From Acidobacteriota bacterium (GTDB lineage: Bacteria; Acidobacteriota; Terriglobia; Bryobacterales; Bryobacteraceae): a stretch of DNA of 64,000 bases. The notes below the pieces were generated by a model. That model saw only the letters and a list, made by a program, of their open reading frames with translations. It had not been told where the DNA came from and made no database searches. Both the position numbers and the translations under genes were made by a program. The DNA lies in NCBI GenBank assembly GCA_017304135.1, contig JAFLBB010000001.1:124001-188000 (forward strand). Reading direction: 5' to 3'. Shown here in pieces: positions 6,280 through 15,780 of this stretch. How positions within the stretch are numbered: the stretch's first letter is position 1; each line of letters opens with the position of its first letter.

Positions 6280-6392
6280 AGGGGTAGTATGCAACGGCTC
6301 GTCCATTGTGTATTCTTGGCTAACCCGACGAGCAGAAGATAACTAGGAAACTCGCTGCTTTCGGCATGAGACTGGTCACCTGGGAGACCTTC

Positions 6393-8276
6393 ATGCACAC
6401 ATCTACCGTAGTTCGCGGCGTTGCCGCGCTGCTACTACTCTCCGCCACTGCGCTCGCGCAGGGAACCATCACCACGATTGCCGGCACCGGCGACGGTGTC
6501 TTCACCGGCGACGGGGGACAGGCAACTGCCGCGGCGCTGCAGGCGCCCACCGGTCTTGCCGTTGACGCGGCGGGCAACATATACATCGCCGACTTCGGCA
6601 ACAAGCGCATCCGCCGCATCACACCGGCCGGCGTCATCGACACTTACGCCGGAAACGGCACCATCGGCTTTTCAGGTGATGGCGGGCCAGCGGTGAACGC
6701 CCAGTTGTTTGTCATCACCTCCACGCATCAAGGGCTTGCCGTCGATCCGGGAGGAAACCTCTATATCGCCGACCCCGACAACGCACGCATTCGAAAAGTC
6801 ACTCCGGCCGGCACCATCAGCACGTACGCCGGCATGGGCCCGGCTCTCTTTGGCGGCGACGGTGGTCCGGCGACGATGGCCGGCCTCTCCCTACCCGGCA
6901 GCGTGGCGCTGGACGGCGCCGGGAACCTGTTCCTCACGGACCAGAACAACAGCCGCATCCGCAAAGTAACCCCGGCGGGCGTGATCAGCACTGTGGCCGG
7001 CACCGGTCTACCGGCCTATTCCGGCGATGGCGGCCCGGCCACCAACGCCGGCATTGCATTTCCCGTCTCCGTAGCGACCGACACGGCGGGCAACCTGTAT
7101 TTCGCCGACCTCAGCAGCCACCGCATCCGCAAGGTGGATCTCGCTGGTGTCGTGACCACCGTTGTCGGAAACGGCACCCCTGGATTCGGTGGCGATGGTG
7201 GGGCGGCAACCGCGGCTCAGATCCTCAGCCCGAAGGGGATGGCTGTTGACGGGGCCGGCAACCTCTACTTCGCCGATACCAACAACGACCGCATCCGGAA
7301 AGTCGACACGAACGGCATCATCACCACCGTGGCGGGAACTGCACAGCCTGGTTTTTGGGGCGACGGTGGTCCGGCCACAAGCGCGCGGTTATCCAGCCCG
7401 CGAGATGTGAAGGTGGATGCGCAGGGAAACCTCTATATCGCGGATGCCGGGAATAACCGGATTCGGAAGGTATCGGCCGTGGGGTCGGGTGGAGGCGGCG
7501 GCACGGGAGGCGGAGGCGTCGGCGGTGGTGGGGGAGGTGGAGCGGGCGGGGGAGGTGGCACCGGCTTGCCCGTCATCACGCGCGTGGGCAATGCGGCTGG
7601 CAATAGCACCACGATTGCGCCCAACACGTGGGTCGAAATCAAGGGAACAAACCTGAGCTCCACAACACGTGTGTGGGCAGGCGCCGATTTTTCGGGAGGC
7701 CAGATGCCGATTCGGGTGGACGGCGTTAGTGTGACGGTAAATGGCAGGAATGCGTTCGTCTATTACGTCAGTCCGACGCAGATCAACGTGCTCACGCCAC
7801 CGGATGCCATGCAGGGGGCCGTTCCAGTCGTGGTGACCGCAGCCGGTGGGTCGAGTTCGCCCTTCACAGTGCAAGCACAGGAGCTCTCACCCGCGTTCTT
7901 CACCTTTAACGGGGGTAATTACCTCGCCGCCACCCACGCCGACGGCAGCCTGCTTGGCCCGGCCACCCTCTTTCCTGGAGCGACCACGCCGGCCAGGCCC
8001 GGTGAGCAGGTGATCCTCTACGGAAACGGCTTCGGCGTCACCATCCCACCGGTTGTGAGCGGCAGCGCCTCGCAGTCGGGCACGTTGCCATTGCTGCCCA
8101 CTGTCTCAGTCGGCGGACTCCTCGCAACGGTGCAGTTCGCCGGGCTCATCTCGCCTGGGCTATTTCAGCTCAACATCACCGTTCCCGCCAATGCGGCGGA
8201 CGGCGACCTGATGATCCGCGCCGGGTATCTCGGCGCGCTCACACAAGCCCAGGCTCTGCTGAGCGTGAAGAAGTAA
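6393..8276 (+). CDS. NHL-repeat exoprotein with Solibacter-type C-terminal domain
   Basis: ATG 6393 is chosen because GGGAG at 6382-6386 lies six bases upstream and the product begins with a standard leader (MHTSTVVRGVAALLLLSATA, cleaved near ALAQ). About six NHL blades follow, each with the pattern GDGGPAT, then VDAAGNLYIAD, NxRIRKV and ITTVAG, forming a beta-propeller of roughly 330 residues. A glycine-only linker with sparse T/V/A (bases about 7488-7563) joins the propeller to a ~220-residue C-terminal domain. That domain reads as the Solibacter paralogous C-terminal family (TIGR03437 type): NTWVEIKGTNLSSTTRVW, YYVSPTQINVLTP, RPGEQVILYGNGFG and GLFQLNITVPANAADGDLMI. This domain is strongly enriched in Solibacter-type Acidobacteria and is the best taxonomic marker here. 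The protein is probably secreted or surface-associated; its ligand is unknown. Confidence 0.88.
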   Translation: MHTSTVVRGVAALLLLSATALAQGTITTIAGTGDGVFTGDGGQATAAALQAPTGLAVDAAGNIYIADFGNKRIRRITPAGVIDTYAGNGTIGFSGDGGPAVNAQLFVITSTHQGLAVDPGGNLYIADPDNARIRKVTPAGTISTYAGMGPALFGGDGGPATMAGLSLPGSVALDGAGNLFLTDQNNSRIRKVTPAGVISTVAGTGLPAYSGDGGPATNAGIAFPVSVATDTAGNLYFADLSSHRIRKVDLAGVVTTVVGNGTPGFGGDGGAATAAQILSPKGMAVDGAGNLYFADTNNDRIRKVDTNGIITTVAGTAQPGFWGDGGPATSARLSSPRDVKVDAQGNLYIADAGNNRIRKVSAVGSGGGGGTGGGGVGGGGGGGAGGGGGTGLPVITRVGNAAGNSTTIAPNTWVEIKGTNLSSTTRVWAGADFSGGQMPIRVDGVSVTVNGRNAFVYYVSPTQINVLTPPDAMQGAVPVVVTAAGGSSSPFTVQAQELSPAFFTFNGGNYLAATHADGSLLGPATLFPGATTPARPGEQVILYGNGFGVTIPPVVSGSASQSGTLPLLPTVSVGGLLATVQFAGLISPGLFQLNITVPANAADGDLMIRAGYLGALTQAQALLSVKK

Positions 8277-8362: not shown

Positions 8363-9514
8363 TCAGCGGGAAGTGAGCAGATCTCGCGCCATGCGGACGC
8401 GTTCGGCGGCTTCCTCGGCGTCCGGCGCCATCGCCGTGAGGTGTCCCATCTTGCGGCCGGGGCGCGGCGAGGCCTTCCCGTACAGATGGAGTTTCACATC
8501 GGGCAGCGCCGTGACGGCCTGCCAGTTGGGTTCGCCGTTTGCCCAAAGGTCACCCAGCAGGTTGGCCATCGCCGCCGGACGCAGCAGTTCCGTGGAGCCC
8601 AGCGAGAGGCCGCAAATCGCACGCAACTGCTGCTCAAACTGCGAGGTGACGCAGGCATCGAAGGTGAAGTGGCCGGAGTTGTGTGGTCTGGGCGCCAGTT
8701 CATTGATCAACACACGGCCGGAACGTTCCAGGAAGAACTCGACGCAGAGCACGCCGACCACGTCGAGCGCCTCCAGCACACCTCGCGTGATCTGGATGGC
8801 GGTTCGCGCGGCCTCCGCGGGGATCGAGGCCGGCGCCGTGGTGACATCCAGAATGTGGTTGCTGTGCTCGTTTTCCACCGCGCCATAGTGAGCAAAGCCG
8901 CCATCCAAAGCGCGGGCCGCCACTACGGAGAATTCGCACTCGAAATCGACAAACGCCTCCAGCACACACTCCCCGCCGCCCGCCTGCTGGTATGCCGCGG
9001 CAAGATCGGTATCGCTGTGAATCCTGGCCTGGCCTTTGCCGTCGTAGCCGAAGCCGGCGGATTTGAGCACGGCGGGCAGCCCCAGTTCGGCAATGGCGTG
9101 CGGCAATTGGTCGAGTGAGTTGACCACCTCGAACTGCGTCACCGGGAATCCCTGGTCTCGCAGGAAGGTCTTCTCCCTTCGGCGGTGTTGCGTGATGTGG
9201 AGCACCTCGCCGGAAGGCCGCGCCGGGGCGAACTCGGCTGCCGCCGCGGTGGCCGCCGAGGAGACGTTTTCGAACTCGAACGTGACCACGCTCACCGATT
9301 GGGCAAAGCGCCGCACGGCATCCAGGTCGTCATAGCTCGCCTTGATTTCCAGGTCGGCAACCTGGCCGGTGGGCGTGTCGTCGTCCGGTGAGAAGGTGTG
9401 CACGCGGTAGCCCATGCGACGAGCGGCGATGGCGAACATGCGGCCGAGTTGACCGCTGCCCAGAACGCCGACCGTGGCCCCAGGCAGAATCGGCGCGCGC
9501 CAAGAACGGCTCAC
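8363..9514 (-). CDS. purK: N5-carboxyaminoimidazole ribonucleotide synthase
   Basis: PurK is the ATP-grasp enzyme that carboxylates AIR with bicarbonate and ATP to give N5-CAIR in de novo purine synthesis. The 383-residue length is normal. The pre-ATP-grasp Rossmann segment is [20 protein letters not shown] (about residues 17-36). ATP-grasp features include [19 protein letters not shown], the [18 protein letters not shown] strand, and the metal/active-site stretch [20 protein letters not shown]. The ATG overlaps the purE stop by four bases (ATGA), the classic purE-purK arrangement. Reading continues to a stop at 8363 with no disruption. The assignment is secure. Confidence 0.96.
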
Positions 9515-10014
9515 GAAAGTGAGTCCTCCAGCACGCGCTGCGTTTGCGCGCGGCGGAACTCCTCCAGGCGCTCCGCATATCCGGAATGCTTGTTCGCCAG
9601 AATCGAGACCGCCAGCAGGGCCGCGTTGATGGCGCCCGCTTTGCCAATGGCCAGCGTGGCGACGGGAATCCCGCCGGGCATCTGCACGATGCTCAACAAC
9701 GAATCCACGCCTCGCAGCACGGCGCTTTCGATCGGCACGCCGAGCACGGGCAGCGTCGTGTGCGCCGCGGTCATACCAGGTAGATGGGCGGCTCCGCCGG
9801 CGGCGGCGATGATCACCTCAATCCCACGGGCGCGCGCCGCTTTGGCGAACTCCGCCATCAGGTCAGGCGTTCTGTGGGCGCTCACAATGCGGCATTCACG
9901 AGGCACGCCCAACAGGGCCAGCGTCTCATCGCAATGCTGCATGGTCGCCCAATCCGAGCGGCTGCCCATGATCACGGCAACAAGGGGGGCAGGTGCGGGT
10001 GCGTCCGGGGGCAT
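9511..10014 (-). CDS. purE: N5-CAIR mutase
   Basis: Class I PurE, the cytoplasmic mutase that converts N5-CAIR to CAIR in purine synthesis. 167 residues, normal for bacterial PurE. The substrate loop [10 protein letters not shown] lies near residues 17-26, SAHRTPD follows, and the glycine-rich core is [20 protein letters not shown]. These support the class I (PurK-dependent) form, consistent with purK directly downstream and coupled by an ATGA overlap. An Ala/Pro-rich N-terminal extension of about 10 residues precedes the core. It is divergent from the MFS gene at 10046, with only 31 bases between the two starts, so the promoters must overlap neighbouring coding sequence. Confidence 0.96.
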
Positions 10015-10045: not shown

Positions 10046-11302
10046 GTGCAGCGTCCTACGCGCGTCCGCCACATTGTCCTTTGGCTCACCGTTGCAGCCT
10101 ACATGATCACCTACATGGATCGTGTCGTCATCAGCGCGGCCGTGCCCTCGATTCAAAAAGAACTGGGCATCTCCATCGTGGCGATGGGTTGGATTCTCAG
10201 CTCGTTCCGATGGGGCTATGCGCTGTTCCAGATCCCCGGCGGCTGGCTGGGCGACCGTATCGGTCCTCGCCGCGCTCTGACGCTGATCGTCACCTGGTGG
10301 AGCGGCTTCACCGCCCTCACCGCGGCCAGCTTCAGCGTCAACTCCATGGCCGCCGTGCGCTTCCTGTTCGGCGTCGGCGAGGCCGGGGCGTTTCCCATTG
10401 CCACGCGTAGTCTGTCGCGCTGGATGCTGCCTACCGAACGGGGCTACGCGCAGGGCATCACGCACGCCGGCTCCCGGCTCGGCGCTGCGTTTACACCGCC
10501 CATTGTGGTTTGGCTGATCGCCGAGTATGGCTGGCGAACCCCCTTCTATGTATTTGGCGTCCTGGGACTCTTCTGGGCCGCGCTCTGGTTCTGGTATTAC
10601 CGCGATACCCCCGATGAGCATGGCTCATTGAATGACGCCGAGCGCCAGCTGATTCGCGAAAAACTGGGCGCTCCCAACAAGCGCGCCGCCACCGACGTGC
10701 CCTGGGGCATCATTCTGGGTACGCGTCAAATTTGGGTGCTCTCGTCGATGTACTTCTGCTACGGCTACTGCCTTGCCGTCTACCTCGACTGGTTCCCCAA
10801 GTACCTCAACGCCCACCGCGGCTTTGATCTGAAACAGATGGGCTTCTATGCCAGCCTGCCCCTGCTCGCCGGAGTGTTCGGCGACTTTCTCGGCGGCTGG
10901 CTGTCTGACCGTTGGGCCCACTCCTCGGGCAACCTGCGGCTGGCGCGCCGCGGCGTGGGCAGCTTTGGCTTCGCCCTGGCGGCGGCCGGCATTCTGCCCG
11001 CCACCCTCACCCCTGACCCCCATCTGAGCGTAGTCTTCACCTGCCTTGCCTTCTTCGGTCTGGAGTTGACCGTCGGTGTCAGTTGGGCTATCCCGCTCGA
11101 TGTCGGCGGCGACTTTGCCGGCTCCGTTTCGGCCGTCATGAACACCATGGGCAACATCGGCGGGGCCATCTCTTCCGCCGTGGTTGGCTACCTCGTCCAA
11201 GGCTACGGATGGAACGTTCCGTTCCTGGTGGCGGCGGCGCTGTGCGTGACAGCCGCTTTCCTCTTTGCAAGAATAGATGCATCTCGTCGATTGTTTACCT
11301 AG
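10046..11302 (+). CDS. MFS transporter, anion:cation symporter-like
   Basis: 418-residue inner-membrane transporter with twelve hydrophobic segments. The N-terminal helix carries AAYMITYMDRVVISAAVP, and the MFS loop 2-3 signature is GGWLGDRIGPRRALT. The same loop repeats in the second half as GGWLSDRWAHSSGN. RFLFGVGEAGAFPIATRSLS in helix 4-5 is typical of the ACS family, which takes up organic anions such as hexonates, sugar acids and phthalate. The start is GTG 10046; a TATGAT hexamer at 10026-10031 lies close upstream and no Shine-Dalgarno is seen. The ferredoxin-like gene begins ten bases after its stop, so this transporter probably supplies the substrate of the two redox-type proteins downstream. 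The substrate itself is not readable. Confidence 0.87.
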   Translation: MQRPTRVRHIVLWLTVAAYMITYMDRVVISAAVPSIQKELGISIVAMGWILSSFRWGYALFQIPGGWLGDRIGPRRALTLIVTWWSGFTALTAASFSVNSMAAVRFLFGVGEAGAFPIATRSLSRWMLPTERGYAQGITHAGSRLGAAFTPPIVVWLIAEYGWRTPFYVFGVLGLFWAALWFWYYRDTPDEHGSLNDAERQLIREKLGAPNKRAATDVPWGIILGTRQIWVLSSMYFCYGYCLAVYLDWFPKYLNAHRGFDLKQMGFYASLPLLAGVFGDFLGGWLSDRWAHSSGNLRLARRGVGSFGFALAAAGILPATLTPDPHLSVVFTCLAFFGLELTVGVSWAIPLDVGGDFAGSVSAVMNTMGNIGGAISSAVVGYLVQGYGWNVPFLVAAALCVTAAFLFARIDASRRLFT

Positions 11303-11311
11303 GAGTGAAGT

Positions 11312-12157
11312 ATGCGCATCGATTCCAATAAATGCGTGGCCTGCGGCAACTGCACCTACGTCTGCCCCATGGGGGCGATCTATGTGGACCCGCTGACCAA
11401 CCGGTCAACCATTGATCGCGATGAGTGTGTCGAGTGCTTCTCCTGTTACAACGGCCTGAGCCAGGAGCACCTCAATCCGACCCTGGTCCGCACGCTTCGT
11501 GGATTCCTCAAGCTGTTCCGCATCCGCTTCGATCCCGAACCCGATGTGTGTCCCACGGCCGCATTTCAGCCTGAGGATCTGACCTGGCCGCGCGTCGTTC
11601 GCCGCGCCTTCTCCGATCCGCGTGTGCCGCACGAATCGACAGGTGTCGAGGGGCGCGGGACCGAGGAAGTGAAGACCAACGACGTCAGTGGGCGCGTCAA
11701 GGTGGGCGAGGTAGGCTTCACGATCGAGTTCGGGCGTCCAGGCGTTGGCGTCCGCTTCCGCGATATCAACAAGATGACCGTTGCGCTCGCGGCATCGGGC
11801 GTGGAGTTCGAGAAGAAGAACCCGATCACGACGCTGCTCAAGGACAAGGCTACCGGCGAAATCCGCGACGACATTCTCAACGAGAAGATCATGTCGGCGA
11901 TCGTCGAAATCAAGGTCCCCATCGAGCGCTGTGAAGAGGTCGTCCGCCTGGTGTGGAAGGTGGAAAAGGAAGTGGACACGGTCGTTGTGCTGGGCGTTGG
12001 CGTGCGCTGCGATGAGAACGGGGAAGATCCCATCGTCCTGCCCGTGTTGAAGAAGCTCGGCTACGATCCCCAGCGCGCCAAGACAAACATTGGTCTGGGA
12101 CGCATCACCAACCCGGACGCCATCGAGAAGCCCCAGGAAACCGTGGGCGCGCGCTAA
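11312..12157 (+). CDS. Unknown protein with ferredoxin-like N-terminus, split second cluster motif
   Basis: 281 residues, preceded by AGGAG a few bases before ATG 11312. The N-terminus has a complete bacterial ferredoxin motif, Cys8-x2-Cys11-x2-Cys14-x3-Cys18-Pro, which binds one [4Fe-4S] cluster. A second set, Cys39-x2-Cys42-x2-Cys45, lacks the immediate fourth Cys; a Cys80-Pro appears 34 residues later (DVCPTAAF), so a second cluster with an inserted loop is likely. The remaining ~190 residues have no motif I recognise. They contain alternating beta/alpha stretches such as VGEVGFTIEFGRPGVGVRFR and two acidic-basic helices. No flavin- or molybdopterin-binding signature is visible. The gene is sandwiched between an MFS transporter and a Cys-rich gene 16 bases downstream, implying a co-expressed redox pathway. 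Function unknown; electron transfer is inferred. Confidence 0.8.
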   Translation: MRIDSNKCVACGNCTYVCPMGAIYVDPLTNRSTIDRDECVECFSCYNGLSQEHLNPTLVRTLRGFLKLFRIRFDPEPDVCPTAAFQPEDLTWPRVVRRAFSDPRVPHESTGVEGRGTEEVKTNDVSGRVKVGEVGFTIEFGRPGVGVRFRDINKMTVALAASGVEFEKKNPITTLLKDKATGEIRDDILNEKIMSAIVEIKVPIERCEEVVRLVWKVEKEVDTVVVLGVGVRCDENGEDPIVLPVLKKLGYDPQRAKTNIGLGRITNPDAIEKPQETVGAR

Positions 12158-12173
12158 GAGAGGACAACAAGAC

Positions 12174-12851
12174 ATGACGAACACACTCCACCGCCAGGGC
12201 AATGCGGAGAGCTTCCAGGACGACATCATCGTCTTTGCTATGTGCGCGCGCGGCAAGAACGACCAGGAGGCGCTGCCGAAGCTGCGCAAGTTCCTCGAAA
12301 TGGCCGTTCCGTTCGGCCCCGTGAACCTTGGCGACGCGCGCCACGGGGGGGCGCTGCGGCCCTGCCAGAAGATGAACCCCACCGCTCACTGGAACCGCGA
12401 CCGCACGCCCAATCTCGATGAGGTGGTGGCTGGCCTGGACGCTCCCACCACCGTGGCGGCCGTCTTCGACAGTATGGAAAAGGCCAAGGCCTTCGTGAAG
12501 GCTGTCCGTGAGGCCGATCTGGGCATGTCGATCAACGTCTCCAGTTCCATGGAGAACGCCATTGGCTGCTGCCAGGCCGCCGGCATCAAGCGCCACAGCG
12601 TCGGCTATTCCCTTGGCTTCGAAGGCAAAACGGAGAAGCTGCCCAACACTCAGGTGCTTGAGCTGATGACCATGTGCGGGCACGGCATGGTGGCCGGTTC
12701 GCTGGCCAAGAAGATGATCGACTGGGTCAAGGAAGGCCGCCGCACGCCCGAGGAAGCCGCCAGCTACATGACACGCTTCTGCTCCTGCGGCGTCTTCAAC
12801 CCGCAGCGCGCAAAACGGATCCTGGAAGAAGCGCGGCACAAGACCCGGTGA
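12174..12851 (+). CDS. Unknown Cys-rich conserved-looking protein
   Basis: 225 residues from ATG 12174, with GAGAGGA just upstream. I do not recognise the family. Seven cysteines (24, 64, 132, 133, 168, 203, 205) sit in distinct motifs: FAMCARGK, ALRPCQKMN, NAIGCCQAAGIKRHSVGYSL, TMCGHGM and RFCSCGVFNPQRA. This spacing, with adjacent His and Lys/Arg, looks like a metal or Fe-S active site and not disulfides, since there is no leader peptide or membrane segment. It lies 16 bases behind the ferredoxin-like gene and is probably its functional partner, the ferredoxin supplying electrons. An earlier in-frame start would invade the upstream gene and was not chosen. Reaction unknown. Confidence 0.75.
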   Translation: MTNTLHRQGNAESFQDDIIVFAMCARGKNDQEALPKLRKFLEMAVPFGPVNLGDARHGGALRPCQKMNPTAHWNRDRTPNLDEVVAGLDAPTTVAAVFDSMEKAKAFVKAVREADLGMSINVSSSMENAIGCCQAAGIKRHSVGYSLGFEGKTEKLPNTQVLELMTMCGHGMVAGSLAKKMIDWVKEGRRTPEEAASYMTRFCSCGVFNPQRAKRILEEARHKTR

Positions 12852-13178
12852 TTGGCTGGCACCCAAACCGACACACTTTCCGCTTGATTTTCACAGGATA
12901 TCCACAGATCCTCAAGCATTCATCCCCACGGTTGCCAGCGTTTTCGCCAGAAGTTCTCCTTCCTGATGTGTAGTACTACCTCCCAAGGCGTTTTCTCTAC
13001 CACTCCCTTGATATATTTCTGTTGTCTACCCCACTCTTCTTGCGGTAGTTCGTAGCGAGCCGTATCGGCCAAAGGTCGGTGAGAGGGAAAAAACACCGGC
13101 ATTCGAACCGCCGGAGCTGTGGGACTTGCGCGCGGCAAGAGAATCCCGGCTGCGAAGTTGAGTGGAGGAGAGTCAAAG
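12852..13178. other. 327-base intergenic gap, locally less GC-rich
   Basis: No supported gene. Composition is visibly less GC-rich than neighbouring genes, especially about 12885-13040, with runs such as TTGATATATTTCTG. A minus-strand open frame at 12920-13138 exists but has no ribosome site and no recognisable features. The last part (13164-13170, GGAGGAG) is the ribosome site of the sigma-like gene. The segment may hold the promoter or 5' leader of that gene; no convincing -35/-10 pair, hairpin terminator or RNA fold was identified. Confidence 0.4.
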
Positions 13179-13838
13179 ATGACGGATCGATTGAGTGCAT
13201 CGCACGCGAGTGCTGACCTTGGATCGCCTCAAAGTGACGCCACCGCCAGGGATGAGTCAACTTTGATGGCAGCCGAGCGCGACAAGTGGGTGGCACTGGC
13301 CAGGCGCGTCGAGGCGGGTGATACCCAGGCCGCCAACGAGTTCAGGAACAACTACTACACCGGTGTGCGTGTGATGTTGAAGCGGTCGCTTGGCTCGGTC
13401 GGGCTCGAAGCCTTCGTCGAGGAGACGCTCGCCGGCGCAATGGAGGAAATCCGGAAGGGACGGATCCGCGACCCGCGCGAGTTTATCCGGTTCCTGCGCA
13501 CCGTAATCGAACGCCAGCAGGTTGCGGCGACCCACCGCCAGCCGCCTTGGGCCACTCCGGTGATGACCACAATGGACCGCATCCGGATGCGCGAAACCGC
13601 ACGCACATTCGAGCGGGCTCTCATGTCGTTCACCAAGCGCGAACGCGACATCCTGGTGGGCTACTTCTCCCGCGGCCTGACACGCCACGACCTGGAGTGC
13701 ACCTACGGGGCGTCCGAGGCGGAACTGGATTGCCTGCGCTCGCGTCTGCAAGAGCTGATTCATCCCCACCGCGGGCACCGCAGGATGGCGCAGGCGCGAT
13801 CGAACCCGCTCATGCGCAGGGCCGCGGCGGCAAGCTGA
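13179..13838 (+). CDS. Sigma-70-like (ECF-type) RNA polymerase factor
   Basis: 219 residues from ATG 13179, with a strong ribosome site GGAGGAG eight bases upstream. After a polar N-terminal tail of ~30 residues, ALARRVEAGDTQAANEF followed by LKRSLGSVGLEAFVEETL resembles sigma region 2. The C-terminal part, ALMSFTKRERDILVGYFSRG followed by LTRHDLECTYGASEAELDCL, matches a region-4 helix-turn-helix. It would direct core polymerase to a small regulon. No anti-sigma factor or membrane regulator is adjacent, so the controlling signal is unclear. Region 2 is more divergent than usual, so a sigma-like transcription regulator not acting as a true sigma is the main alternative. Confidence 0.7.
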   Translation: MTDRLSASHASADLGSPQSDATARDESTLMAAERDKWVALARRVEAGDTQAANEFRNNYYTGVRVMLKRSLGSVGLEAFVEETLAGAMEEIRKGRIRDPREFIRFLRTVIERQQVAATHRQPPWATPVMTTMDRIRMRETARTFERALMSFTKRERDILVGYFSRGLTRHDLECTYGASEAELDCLRSRLQELIHPHRGHRRMAQARSNPLMRRAAAAS

Positions 13839-13888: not shown

Positions 13889-14323
13889 TTAGTGGGCCCC
13901 CGTGGAGCCGAAGCCTCCCTCACCGCGCGCGGAATCGTTCACGCCCGCCTCCTCCCATTCCACCGGCTCATAGCGCGCGACCACAAGTTGAGCGATGCGC
14001 TCACCCTTCCGCACGGTGTAGGCCTCCCGGCCCAGGTTGAGCACGATCACCTTCACCTCGCCCCGGTAGCCGGGATCAATCGTGCCAGGTGAATTGGGCA
14101 GAATGAGCGCGTGCTTCAGCGCCAGGCCGCTGCGCATGCGGATCTGTCCCTCGCAACCGGAAGGAATCTCCACACGCAATCCGGTGGGGATGAGGCCCGG
14201 AACGCCGGGCTCCAGCCGCACCTCCTCTATGGCCCGCAGGTCCATTCCGGCGTCCTCGGAGGGACCATGGGCGTAATGAGGCAGTTGGGCCTCGGGGTGG
14301 ATACGTTCGATGCGGATCTTCAT
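13889..14323 (-). CDS. dut: dUTP diphosphatase (dUTPase)
   Basis: 144-residue trimeric dUTPase that hydrolyses dUTP to dUMP and pyrophosphate, keeping uracil out of DNA and supplying dUMP to thymidylate synthase. All five family motifs are readable in order: AGMDLRA (about 25-31), RSGLALK (64-70), GTIDPGYRGEVKVIVLN (80-96), ERIAQLVVARYE, and the C-terminal P-loop-like RGEGGFGSTG. The gene is divergent from the ThyX-like gene, with only 29 bases between starts. The pairing makes sense because dUMP is the substrate of thymidylate synthase. Confidence 0.96.
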   Translation of the reverse strand: MKIRIERIHPEAQLPHYAHGPSEDAGMDLRAIEEVRLEPGVPGLIPTGLRVEIPSGCEGQIRMRSGLALKHALILPNSPGTIDPGYRGEVKVIVLNLGREAYTVRKGERIAQLVVARYEPVEWEEAGVNDSARGEGGFGSTGAH

Positions 14324-14352: not shown

Positions 14353-15780
14353 TTGGCTGAGAAACGAGTCCTGACGGTTGCCGGTGTTCCCCCGGAGGCA
14401 TGCGCCTACGCACTGGCGCGCTATTCGCGATCGCCTGACTCCATCGCGGCATCGCTAGATTGGGTGCGCACCCACGACTCCTCTAAATTTCTCGACAGCT
14501 TCTATTTTCAATACGGCCACGCCTCCATTGCCGACCTCGGACACCTCGTCTTCTGCTTTGAGGGGATCTCTGAGCTGGCCGCCACCGAAGTGGAGGATGA
14601 GCAGCTCTGGGACGGGCAGGCGCGGTCGTCGCGCTACCAGGACTTCTCCCGCTCCGGCTTCCTCACTCCCGCTGAGTTGAACGAGCGGCAGGTGGAGATC
14701 TACCAGCACGCCGGCCTCGACCTGCTGGCTGCCTACGAAAAAGTGCACGCCCAGGTGTTTGACCACCTCACGGCGAAACTCCCGAAACCGCCCGAGATGA
14801 AGCAGGACGCCTACCAGCGCAACCTCGCCGCGCGTGCCTTCGACGTGGCGCGCTACCTGCTCTTCTTCGGCGTACCGACGGGCGTTGGGCAGGTAGTCAG
14901 CATCCGCACGCTGGAGCGGCAGATCGCCCGCCTACGCGGCAGCGAGTACATCGAACTGCGCCAGCTGGCCGACGAGATGGTCGAAGCCTGCGCGGAAAAA
15001 CCGGATTGCGTGTGGGACCCCAGCGTTGCCTACGCGCCGTTGGCGCCCACGTTGGCGAAGTACTGTGACGCCGATCCGCACCGCATCCAGGCCACCGCCG
15101 ATCTAAAGCTGTGGGCGAAACAGAATCTGCCCCACGCCGCGGGCGCGCGCATCGACGACGTCGATCTGCTCAAACCCGCCAACACAGCGGCCGATATCGT
15201 CGCGACCCTGCTCTACCCGGTGACCGACCGCCCGTTTCGCGAGCTCTACGACCTGGCCTGCAAGTGGAATGACGCGAGGCGCGCCGAAGTGATCGATGTC
15301 GCCATGCAGTCGCGCGCACGGAAAGACGATCTGCTGCGCGAATTCCGCGGAAGCCTCTACGTCTACGACATTGTGATGGACATCGGCGCCTACCGCGACC
15401 TCCACCGTCACCGCCGCTGCCAGCAGTACCGCCAGGCCTACTCCGGCAAACTGGGCTATGAGACTCCCGCAGCCATTGGCGAAGCCGGCGCCGCCGACAC
15501 CTACCACGACGCCATGCGCTCAGCCTTTGCCGCCATTGGACAACTTCCCGAGCCCGGTTCCCACTACCTCATGCCCTTCGGTGCGCGCGCACGCTTCCTC
15601 TTCAAGATGGACTTTGCCGAGGCGGAGTACATCTCGCGCCTGCGCTCGGGTGTGAAAGGCCACTTCTCCTACCGCAACATCGCCTGGCGCATGCGGGAGC
15701 GCATGTCGGCCCTGGAACCGGAACTGGGACGGCTGATCGATGCGACCCCGCCCTGGATCGAAGACCCACTGACGAGATAG
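14353..15780 (+). CDS. Two-domain FAD-dependent thymidylate synthase-like protein
   Basis: 475 residues, about twice a normal ThyX (220-250). The N-terminal half has ThyX-like FQYGHASIADLGHLVF and RSSRYQDFS. The C-terminal half has a second ThyX-like fold with DLHRHRRCQQYRQAY around residue 350 and HYLMPFGARARFLFKMDF. No single copy of the canonical RHRxxSxNExSxRY motif is intact: one half keeps the Ser-Arg-Tyr end, the other the RHR end. Such long ThyX-like proteins probably form the active site from both halves, but activity is not provable here. It starts at TTG 14353, with TACACT at 14341-14346 and no Shine-Dalgarno. Divergence from dut supports a thymidylate role. Confidence 0.8.
   Translation: MAEKRVLTVAGVPPEACAYALARYSRSPDSIAASLDWVRTHDSSKFLDSFYFQYGHASIADLGHLVFCFEGISELAATEVEDEQLWDGQARSSRYQDFSRSGFLTPAELNERQVEIYQHAGLDLLAAYEKVHAQVFDHLTAKLPKPPEMKQDAYQRNLAARAFDVARYLLFFGVPTGVGQVVSIRTLERQIARLRGSEYIELRQLADEMVEACAEKPDCVWDPSVAYAPLAPTLAKYCDADPHRIQATADLKLWAKQNLPHAAGARIDDVDLLKPANTAADIVATLLYPVTDRPFRELYDLACKWNDARRAEVIDVAMQSRARKDDLLREFRGSLYVYDIVMDIGAYRDLHRHRRCQQYRQAYSGKLGYETPAAIGEAGAADTYHDAMRSAFAAIGQLPEPGSHYLMPFGARARFLFKMDFAEAEYISRLRSGVKGHFSYRNIAWRMRERMSALEPELGRLIDATPPWIEDPLTR

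Follow-up and report, generated by a model that had tools for sequence, protein, structure and literature searches.

Three tightly spaced genes on the plus strand at positions 10046–12851 of the window (the whole 64,000-nucleotide stretch of DNA that was analyzed) encode an MFS transporter and two further proteins, designated P1 and P2 (Table 1); the P1–P2 pair represents an undescribed protein family. We infer its function, as well as complex formation, the cluster types, an enzymatic rather than a regulatory role, and the substrate class. Our leading, though tentative, reading is that P1 and P2 may represent a two-subunit cytoplasmic Fe-S oxidoreductase with a carboxylic acid as its substrate, most likely a sugar acid or a related compound, a reading to which we give somewhat less than an even chance. 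It is based on the adjacency of the pair, the invariant ferredoxin cysteines and charged loop of P1, the DgoT-like transporter, an association with KDPG aldolase, and acid-handling neighbors.

The three genes are co-directional, with gaps of 9 bases between the transporter gene and P1 and of 16 bases between P1 and P2, and the tight spacing described in the original prediction was borne out. AGGAG is found seven bases upstream of the P1 ATG. Relatives of P2 begin with MTNTLHR at the position of the ATG at 12174, which was therefore taken as the P2 start in preference to the TTG of a longer open reading frame from 12090. Scanning for promoters and for terminators yielded a single hit in each case, no better than shuffled sequences. 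The pair is present in a single copy in the window's genome, and close relatives of the locus are found in Bryobacterales/Solibacter MAGs. Just upstream of the MFS gene, and divergent from it, are purK-like and purE-like genes (8363–10014), an arrangement also seen in L016 and L019; a beta-propeller protein of 636 aa, built of NHL repeats and followed by a glycine-rich linker and a TIG-like domain at the C-terminus, is encoded at 6366–8276. On the other side of the locus, a 239-aa protein with no Pfam match (13119–13838) reads like a small sigma-factor-type protein; similar genes are located ~2.3 kb downstream of P1 in several other loci of the pair, among them L015 (12074–12784), L016, and L017. 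A dUTPase gene (13889–14323) is located just upstream of, and on the opposite strand to, a ThyX-type gene (14353–15780) encoding a 475-aa protein with two separate ThyX (Thy1, PF02511) stretches, apparently a double-length flavin-dependent thymidylate synthase.

Table 1. Features of the transporter–P1–P2 locus (window coordinates).
Feature	Position	Strand	Details
MFS transporter, anion:cation symporter/SLC17 (DgoT-like) type	10046..11302	+	418 aa, GTG start
P1, ferredoxin-like protein	11312..12157	+	281 aa
P1 residues 1–82, two predicted [4Fe-4S] sites	11312..11557	+	sequence and conservation
P1 residues ~97–143, charged stretch, most conserved of the family	11600..11740	+	RRAFSDPR..HESTG..GRGTEEVKTND..R
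P1 residues ~130–234, predicted beta-alpha-beta-beta-alpha-beta (ferredoxin-like/PII/ACT-like) domain	11699..12013	+	AlphaFold, pLDDT ~68–96
P2, partner of P1	12174..12851	+	225 aa

A scan of species genomes identified 145 P1 relatives, 80 of which were kept; these are mostly from Bryobacterales, with others from Alphaproteobacteria and a few other labels. The adjacency of P1 and P2 noted in the original prediction proved to be conserved across genomes and phyla (81 of 84 loci, a set that includes two duplicates, L007/L040 and L006/L083). Of the three loci without both genes, two are cut short by the end of a contig; from the third, L094, P2 appears to be genuinely missing. In 57 loci, the two genes share 4 bp. 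In the window's family, P1 was found in 45 of 150 genomes, all of which also matched P2 (45/45). Seven genomes of the family presented a P2 match without P1; five of these matches are stand-alone short domains, and the others are in G727, whose copy is missing the usual N-terminal part, and in G839. A clear P1 was present in only 3 of 396 genomes in a survey of the phylum Acidobacteriota and in 1 of 299 in a survey of Pseudomonadota (the center genome itself), while one alphaproteobacterial order carried the pair in 16 of 96 genomes. P1 identity was 66–100% among MFS-linked loci and 68–72% between the window P1 and alphaproteobacterial P1; judged from these sequences, conservation of P1 across loci is far beyond chance. 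The high cross-phylum identity and patchy distribution suggest that the pair spread by horizontal transfer. Distance-matrix correlations (0.47 for P1–P2, 0.39 for P2–MFS, and 0.11 for P1–MFS), which are confounded by ancestry, are consistent with P1 and P2 being the tighter pair.

Only residues 1–46 of P1 matched Fer4_10 (Pfam, 5e-9). The first predicted [4Fe-4S] site is complete (C8-x2-C11-x2-C14-x3-C18-P); the second (C39-x2-C42-x2-C45) is without the usual fourth cysteine, and C80-P81 is located exactly 34 residues on. All eight cysteines were invariant (8/8, 100%) across 83 sequences, so that the split motif, with its displaced Cys-Pro as originally described, is real; C233 and H107 were invariant as well. 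P1 thus carries the two sets of four cysteines of a 2[4Fe-4S] ferredoxin domain, the second set being split. It resembles the 2[4Fe-4S] ferredoxins (Fer4_10/Fer4_7) in this N-terminal match and in its cysteines, but differs from them by a 34-residue insertion before the fourth cysteine of the second site and by ~200 further residues with no assigned family. The charged stretch at residues ~97–143 is full of invariant charged residues, with a mean conservation of 97% at residues 101–120, above that of the ferredoxin part; mostly low in confidence in the AlphaFold model, it represents a possible anion-binding or active site.

P2 contains seven cysteines, originally predicted to lie in conserved-looking clusters; five are conserved among relatives (C132, 91%; C133, 99%; C168, C203, and C205, 100%), but C24 (30%) and C64 (22%) are not. 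Three histidines (H6, H141, and H170) are invariant, and C168-x-H170 with C203-x-C205 plausibly forms a 3Cys-1His metal site. The AlphaFold model of P2 (pLDDT 85) consists of an N-terminal alpha/beta domain and a C-terminal helical domain, the latter bearing C133, C168-x-H170, and C203-x-C205. A short domain resembling the P2 C-terminus is also found stand-alone in one genus (g218) of the window's family, in proteins of 70–120 aa (L131, 4227–4496; L132, 4899–5192; L135, 5165–5524; L138, 3810–4022) that carry the P2 C-terminal pattern MCxHG...CxCG..PxRAxRIL. At L131 and L133, both among the inspected loci, such proteins adjoin nuo-like (complex I) genes; they are possibly small metal-binding adaptors. 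These stand-alone proteins, which are like the C-terminal 60 residues of P2, weakly matched the GatB/YqeY helical domain (PF02637; 0.002, below cut-off), while P2 itself gave no match to it; P2 and the stand-alone proteins differ from that domain by the added CxH...CxC motif.

Consistent with the original prediction, neither protein matched a known family in any library searched, the ferredoxin domain aside. Pfam, NCBIfam, and PDB sequence searches gave no family match for P2 or for P1 beyond that domain, and 77 P2 and 28 P1 C-terminal homologues scanned singly matched no family in Pfam or NCBIfam above chance level. Against the PDB, sequence-based and profile-based queries with P1 recovered nothing but ferredoxin-type domains, and hits of P2 and of the P1 C-terminus did not rise above chance. 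Profile comparison detected no relationship between the P1 C-terminal domain and P2. Fold searches gave no confident relative of P2, which is not proof of a new fold, and remote-homology searches by profiles and structure prediction retrieved no strong match to a characterized enzyme family. Viral contigs contained no relatives of the pair, and 72,556 plasmids none at 1e-5, with only chance-level hits at E up to 10; a Novosphingobium plasmid hit was rejected as a relative, its neighbors being unrelated. Assignment to a defense system (PADLOC) was also rejected, as BrxP matches the ferredoxin stretch only. Neither P1 nor P2 contained a flavin, NAD, or other recognized catalytic domain, which, with the lack of a confident structural relative, speaks against an oxidoreductase. 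Among the parts of the locus, only the ferredoxin domain and the transporter are assignable; in kind, P1 and P2 are putative Fe-S proteins linked to acid uptake.

The transporter matched MFS_1 (Pfam, 1.4e-67) and is homologous over its full length (phmmer against 6e9n, E 1.2e-52, residues 3–405 of 418) to DgoT, the Escherichia coli D-galactonate:H+ symporter. The likeness extends to the proton-coupling Asp (TM1) and Glu (TM4): D25, R26, and E112 of the transporter correspond to D46, R47, and E133 of DgoT, D25 being found in 38 of 44 operon homologues (Glu in four) and E112 in 44 of 44. In DgoT, D46 and E133 are needed for proton-coupled flux (PMC10149257). This homology and the conservation of the three positions uphold the predicted anion-type transporter, and organic-anion uptake appears well supported. 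The D-galactonate transporter model TIGR00893 scored 282.5 bits, against a cut-off of 395, and galactonate is not claimed as the substrate. Where the DgoT substrate residue Q164 is presumed (alignment read by eye), the transporter has a Ser, adjoining its invariant R144 and near its invariant H140; because of this replacement, its substrate may differ from that of DgoT. The transporter gene is directly upstream of P1 in ~49 of the 79 loci with a visible upstream side, and in 22 loci the two genes overlap, the overlap being 4 or 11 bp; it is missing from the alphaproteobacterial and many acidobacterial loci. It is thus a common but dispensable partner: of the three-gene module originally proposed, the P1–P2 pair is conserved, and the module is therefore the pair rather than the trio.

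In the alphaproteobacterial order, KDPG aldolase of type A or B was present in 15 of 16 pair-bearing genomes and in 22 of 80 without the pair (Fisher 8.5e-7), while type B alone was not enriched with the pair (7/16 versus 22/80, p 0.24); the genomes of the order are related, and these Fisher values, which ignore shared ancestry, overstate the evidence. Thirteen of the 15 genomes carried the aldolase within about 3.5 kb of the pair, and at 14 loci (including L089 and L162, the same genome) it lies beside a KDG kinase (PfkB), about 1.5–3.5 kb from the pair. Seven of these loci have type A and seven type B aldolases, which are ~30% identical between types; two divergent versions at one spot are a better argument than the p-values. 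Each genome has only two PF01081 aldolases, and in nine of the ten genomes examined one of them lay near the pair. Across the order (96 genomes), every close type A aldolase came from a pair-bearing genome (8/8). Counts of kdg genes were obtained by tblastn and genome searches; a simple gene caller overlooked several of these genes. L162 (4070–5592) and L157 (7559–9337) carry, at one and the same place beside an NHL-propeller gene, KDG kinase/KDPG aldolase gene pairs with no more than ~30% identity to each other; in these related Alphaproteobacteria, the kdg gene pairs are apparently a natural swap of isofunctional cassettes. That the pair is associated with KDG kinase and KDPG aldolase suggests a role in the catabolism of (sugar-)carboxylic acids. 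However, an NHL-propeller gene sits between the pair and the kdg genes in most of the 14 loci and neighbors vary by clade, so that the pair and the kdg genes need not belong to one pathway, which also counts against the proposed oxidoreductase.

Dehydration of aldonates or uronates to KDG is in itself not a redox step, a further point against an oxidoreductase. No recognized sugar-acid dehydratase was found among the neighbors scanned in the kdg loci. With KDG kinase and KDPG aldolase near the pair, this would fit an alternative that we consider unlikely, namely that an open-coordinated cluster in P2 acts, with P1, as a non-redox Fe-S hydro-lyase, removing water from an aldonate or hydroxy acid after its import to give a 2-keto-3-deoxy acid. 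Such an enzyme, to which we also give a low probability in its details, would fill the step before KDG kinase and KDPG aldolase, with the ferredoxin part of P1 keeping the cluster reduced; three to four invariant P2 cysteines could hold the cluster. However, Pfam/NCBIfam scans with 77 P2 and 28 P1 C-terminal members revealed no homology to the IlvD/EDD, aconitase, fumarase, or serine dehydratase families, and dehydratases are not known to carry two ferredoxin clusters.

The predicted fold of P1 bears on a further alternative. The AlphaFold model (pLDDT 62 overall) has a confident core at about residues 130–234, of which VIA-align superposed 73 residues on PII-like chains (rmsd 2.7, Z reaching 7.5) in what is a common fold. 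PII/ACT domains are often regulatory, and this resemblance, which counts against an oxidoreductase, would suit a regulator that adjusts acid uptake to redox state or to a metabolite: the acid would bind to P1 at its PII/ACT-like domain, with the Fe-S clusters as redox sensors; transporter adjacency and the diversity of neighboring enzymes would fit as well. We regard this possibility as rather improbable, and similarly so a role of P2 as the output partner controlling the transporter or transcription, since the PII/ACT matches are weak (best Foldseek E 8.7e-3), with no match to a PII/ACT family model in Pfam or NCBIfam among 28 P1 C-terminal members, and no DNA-binding domain was found. In addition, Alphaproteobacteria retain the pair at loci devoid of the transporter, and the most invariant part of P1, the charged loop, is outside the PII/ACT-like domain.

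Other neighbors share the theme of carboxylic-acid catabolism. A frequent neighbor in Acidobacteria is an amidohydrolase-family gene, present near the pair in 22 loci and in many cases directly overlapping the P2 end; the one example inspected has a signal-peptide-like N-terminal stretch and may be periplasmic. Rarer neighbors include FAD-linked 2-hydroxyacid-dehydrogenase-like proteins with Fe-S/CCG domains (five), MmgE/PrpD (three), arylmalonate-decarboxylase family members (two), and DmpF/DmpG (one), and FCD-GntR regulators are also near the pair in some loci. This catabolism is compatible with reduction, oxidation, or dehydration alike; for the reductive conversion originally suggested, the ferredoxin domain is the sole support.

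The amidohydrolase gene recalls enamidase, the gene for which accompanies the reductase of nicotinate fermentation, and 6-hydroxynicotinate reductase is a ferredoxin-type reductase. Some characterized enzymes have no Pfam or NCBIfam model beyond Fer4, and the pair might be a diverged member of such a family missing from the libraries used; we find this very doubtful, as 299 Pseudomonadota, 396 Acidobacteriota, and 72,556 plasmids contained no divergent relatives and the amidohydrolase may be periplasmic. Also highly improbable is a role in assembling, activating, or repairing some other Fe-S or metalloenzyme, in the manner of the methyl-coenzyme M reductase (MCR) activation complex but not as a member of it: several small alpha/beta subunits with Fe-S would fit, but the fold hits to McrD (8gf5, E 0.1) and the MCR activation complex (8s7v, E 1.1) are at chance level, for which reason the MCR idea was dropped, the P1 C-terminus and P2 have no Pfam/NCBIfam match to McrC/McrD/Mmp or another MCR-associated family, and no constant client enzyme adjoins the pair.

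As a two-subunit oxidoreductase, P1–P2 would act on an acid that, in the window's genome, enters through the adjacent DgoT-type proton symporter, which is probably co-transcribed with the pair. The two predicted [4Fe-4S] clusters of P1 would relay electrons between an outside carrier and an active site formed by the invariant charged loop and P2, which would supply the further metal site at C168-x-H170...C203-x-C205, perhaps with C133; the product would feed ordinary keto-acid catabolism (KDG/KDPG in Alphaproteobacteria). The tricarballylate operon tcuABC of Salmonella reportedly also encodes an organic-acid MFS transporter together with an Fe-S electron-transfer protein; in contrast, the window pair has no adjoining TcuA-like flavoprotein, and P2 has no counterpart in tcuABC.

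P1 and P2 form a strictly paired and strongly conserved module, putatively of Fe-S type, that is present in about one third of the sampled genomes of the family yet is not represented in the main libraries of protein families. They may, with a probability that we place a little below one half, constitute a new class of two-subunit Fe-S enzyme that carries out an unrecognized step of acid-sugar or organic-acid catabolism in Bryobacterales and some Alphaproteobacteria; with similarly guarded confidence, it would be distinguished by a second ferredoxin cluster with a split motif, an active-site loop of high charge, and an additional, putative CxH...CxC metal site. The association with KDG kinase and KDPG aldolase provides a concrete candidate substrate class. 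If P1–P2 is an enzyme, it would represent a missing step in the use of carboxylic acids by these bacteria, with a chemistry not predictable from known families.
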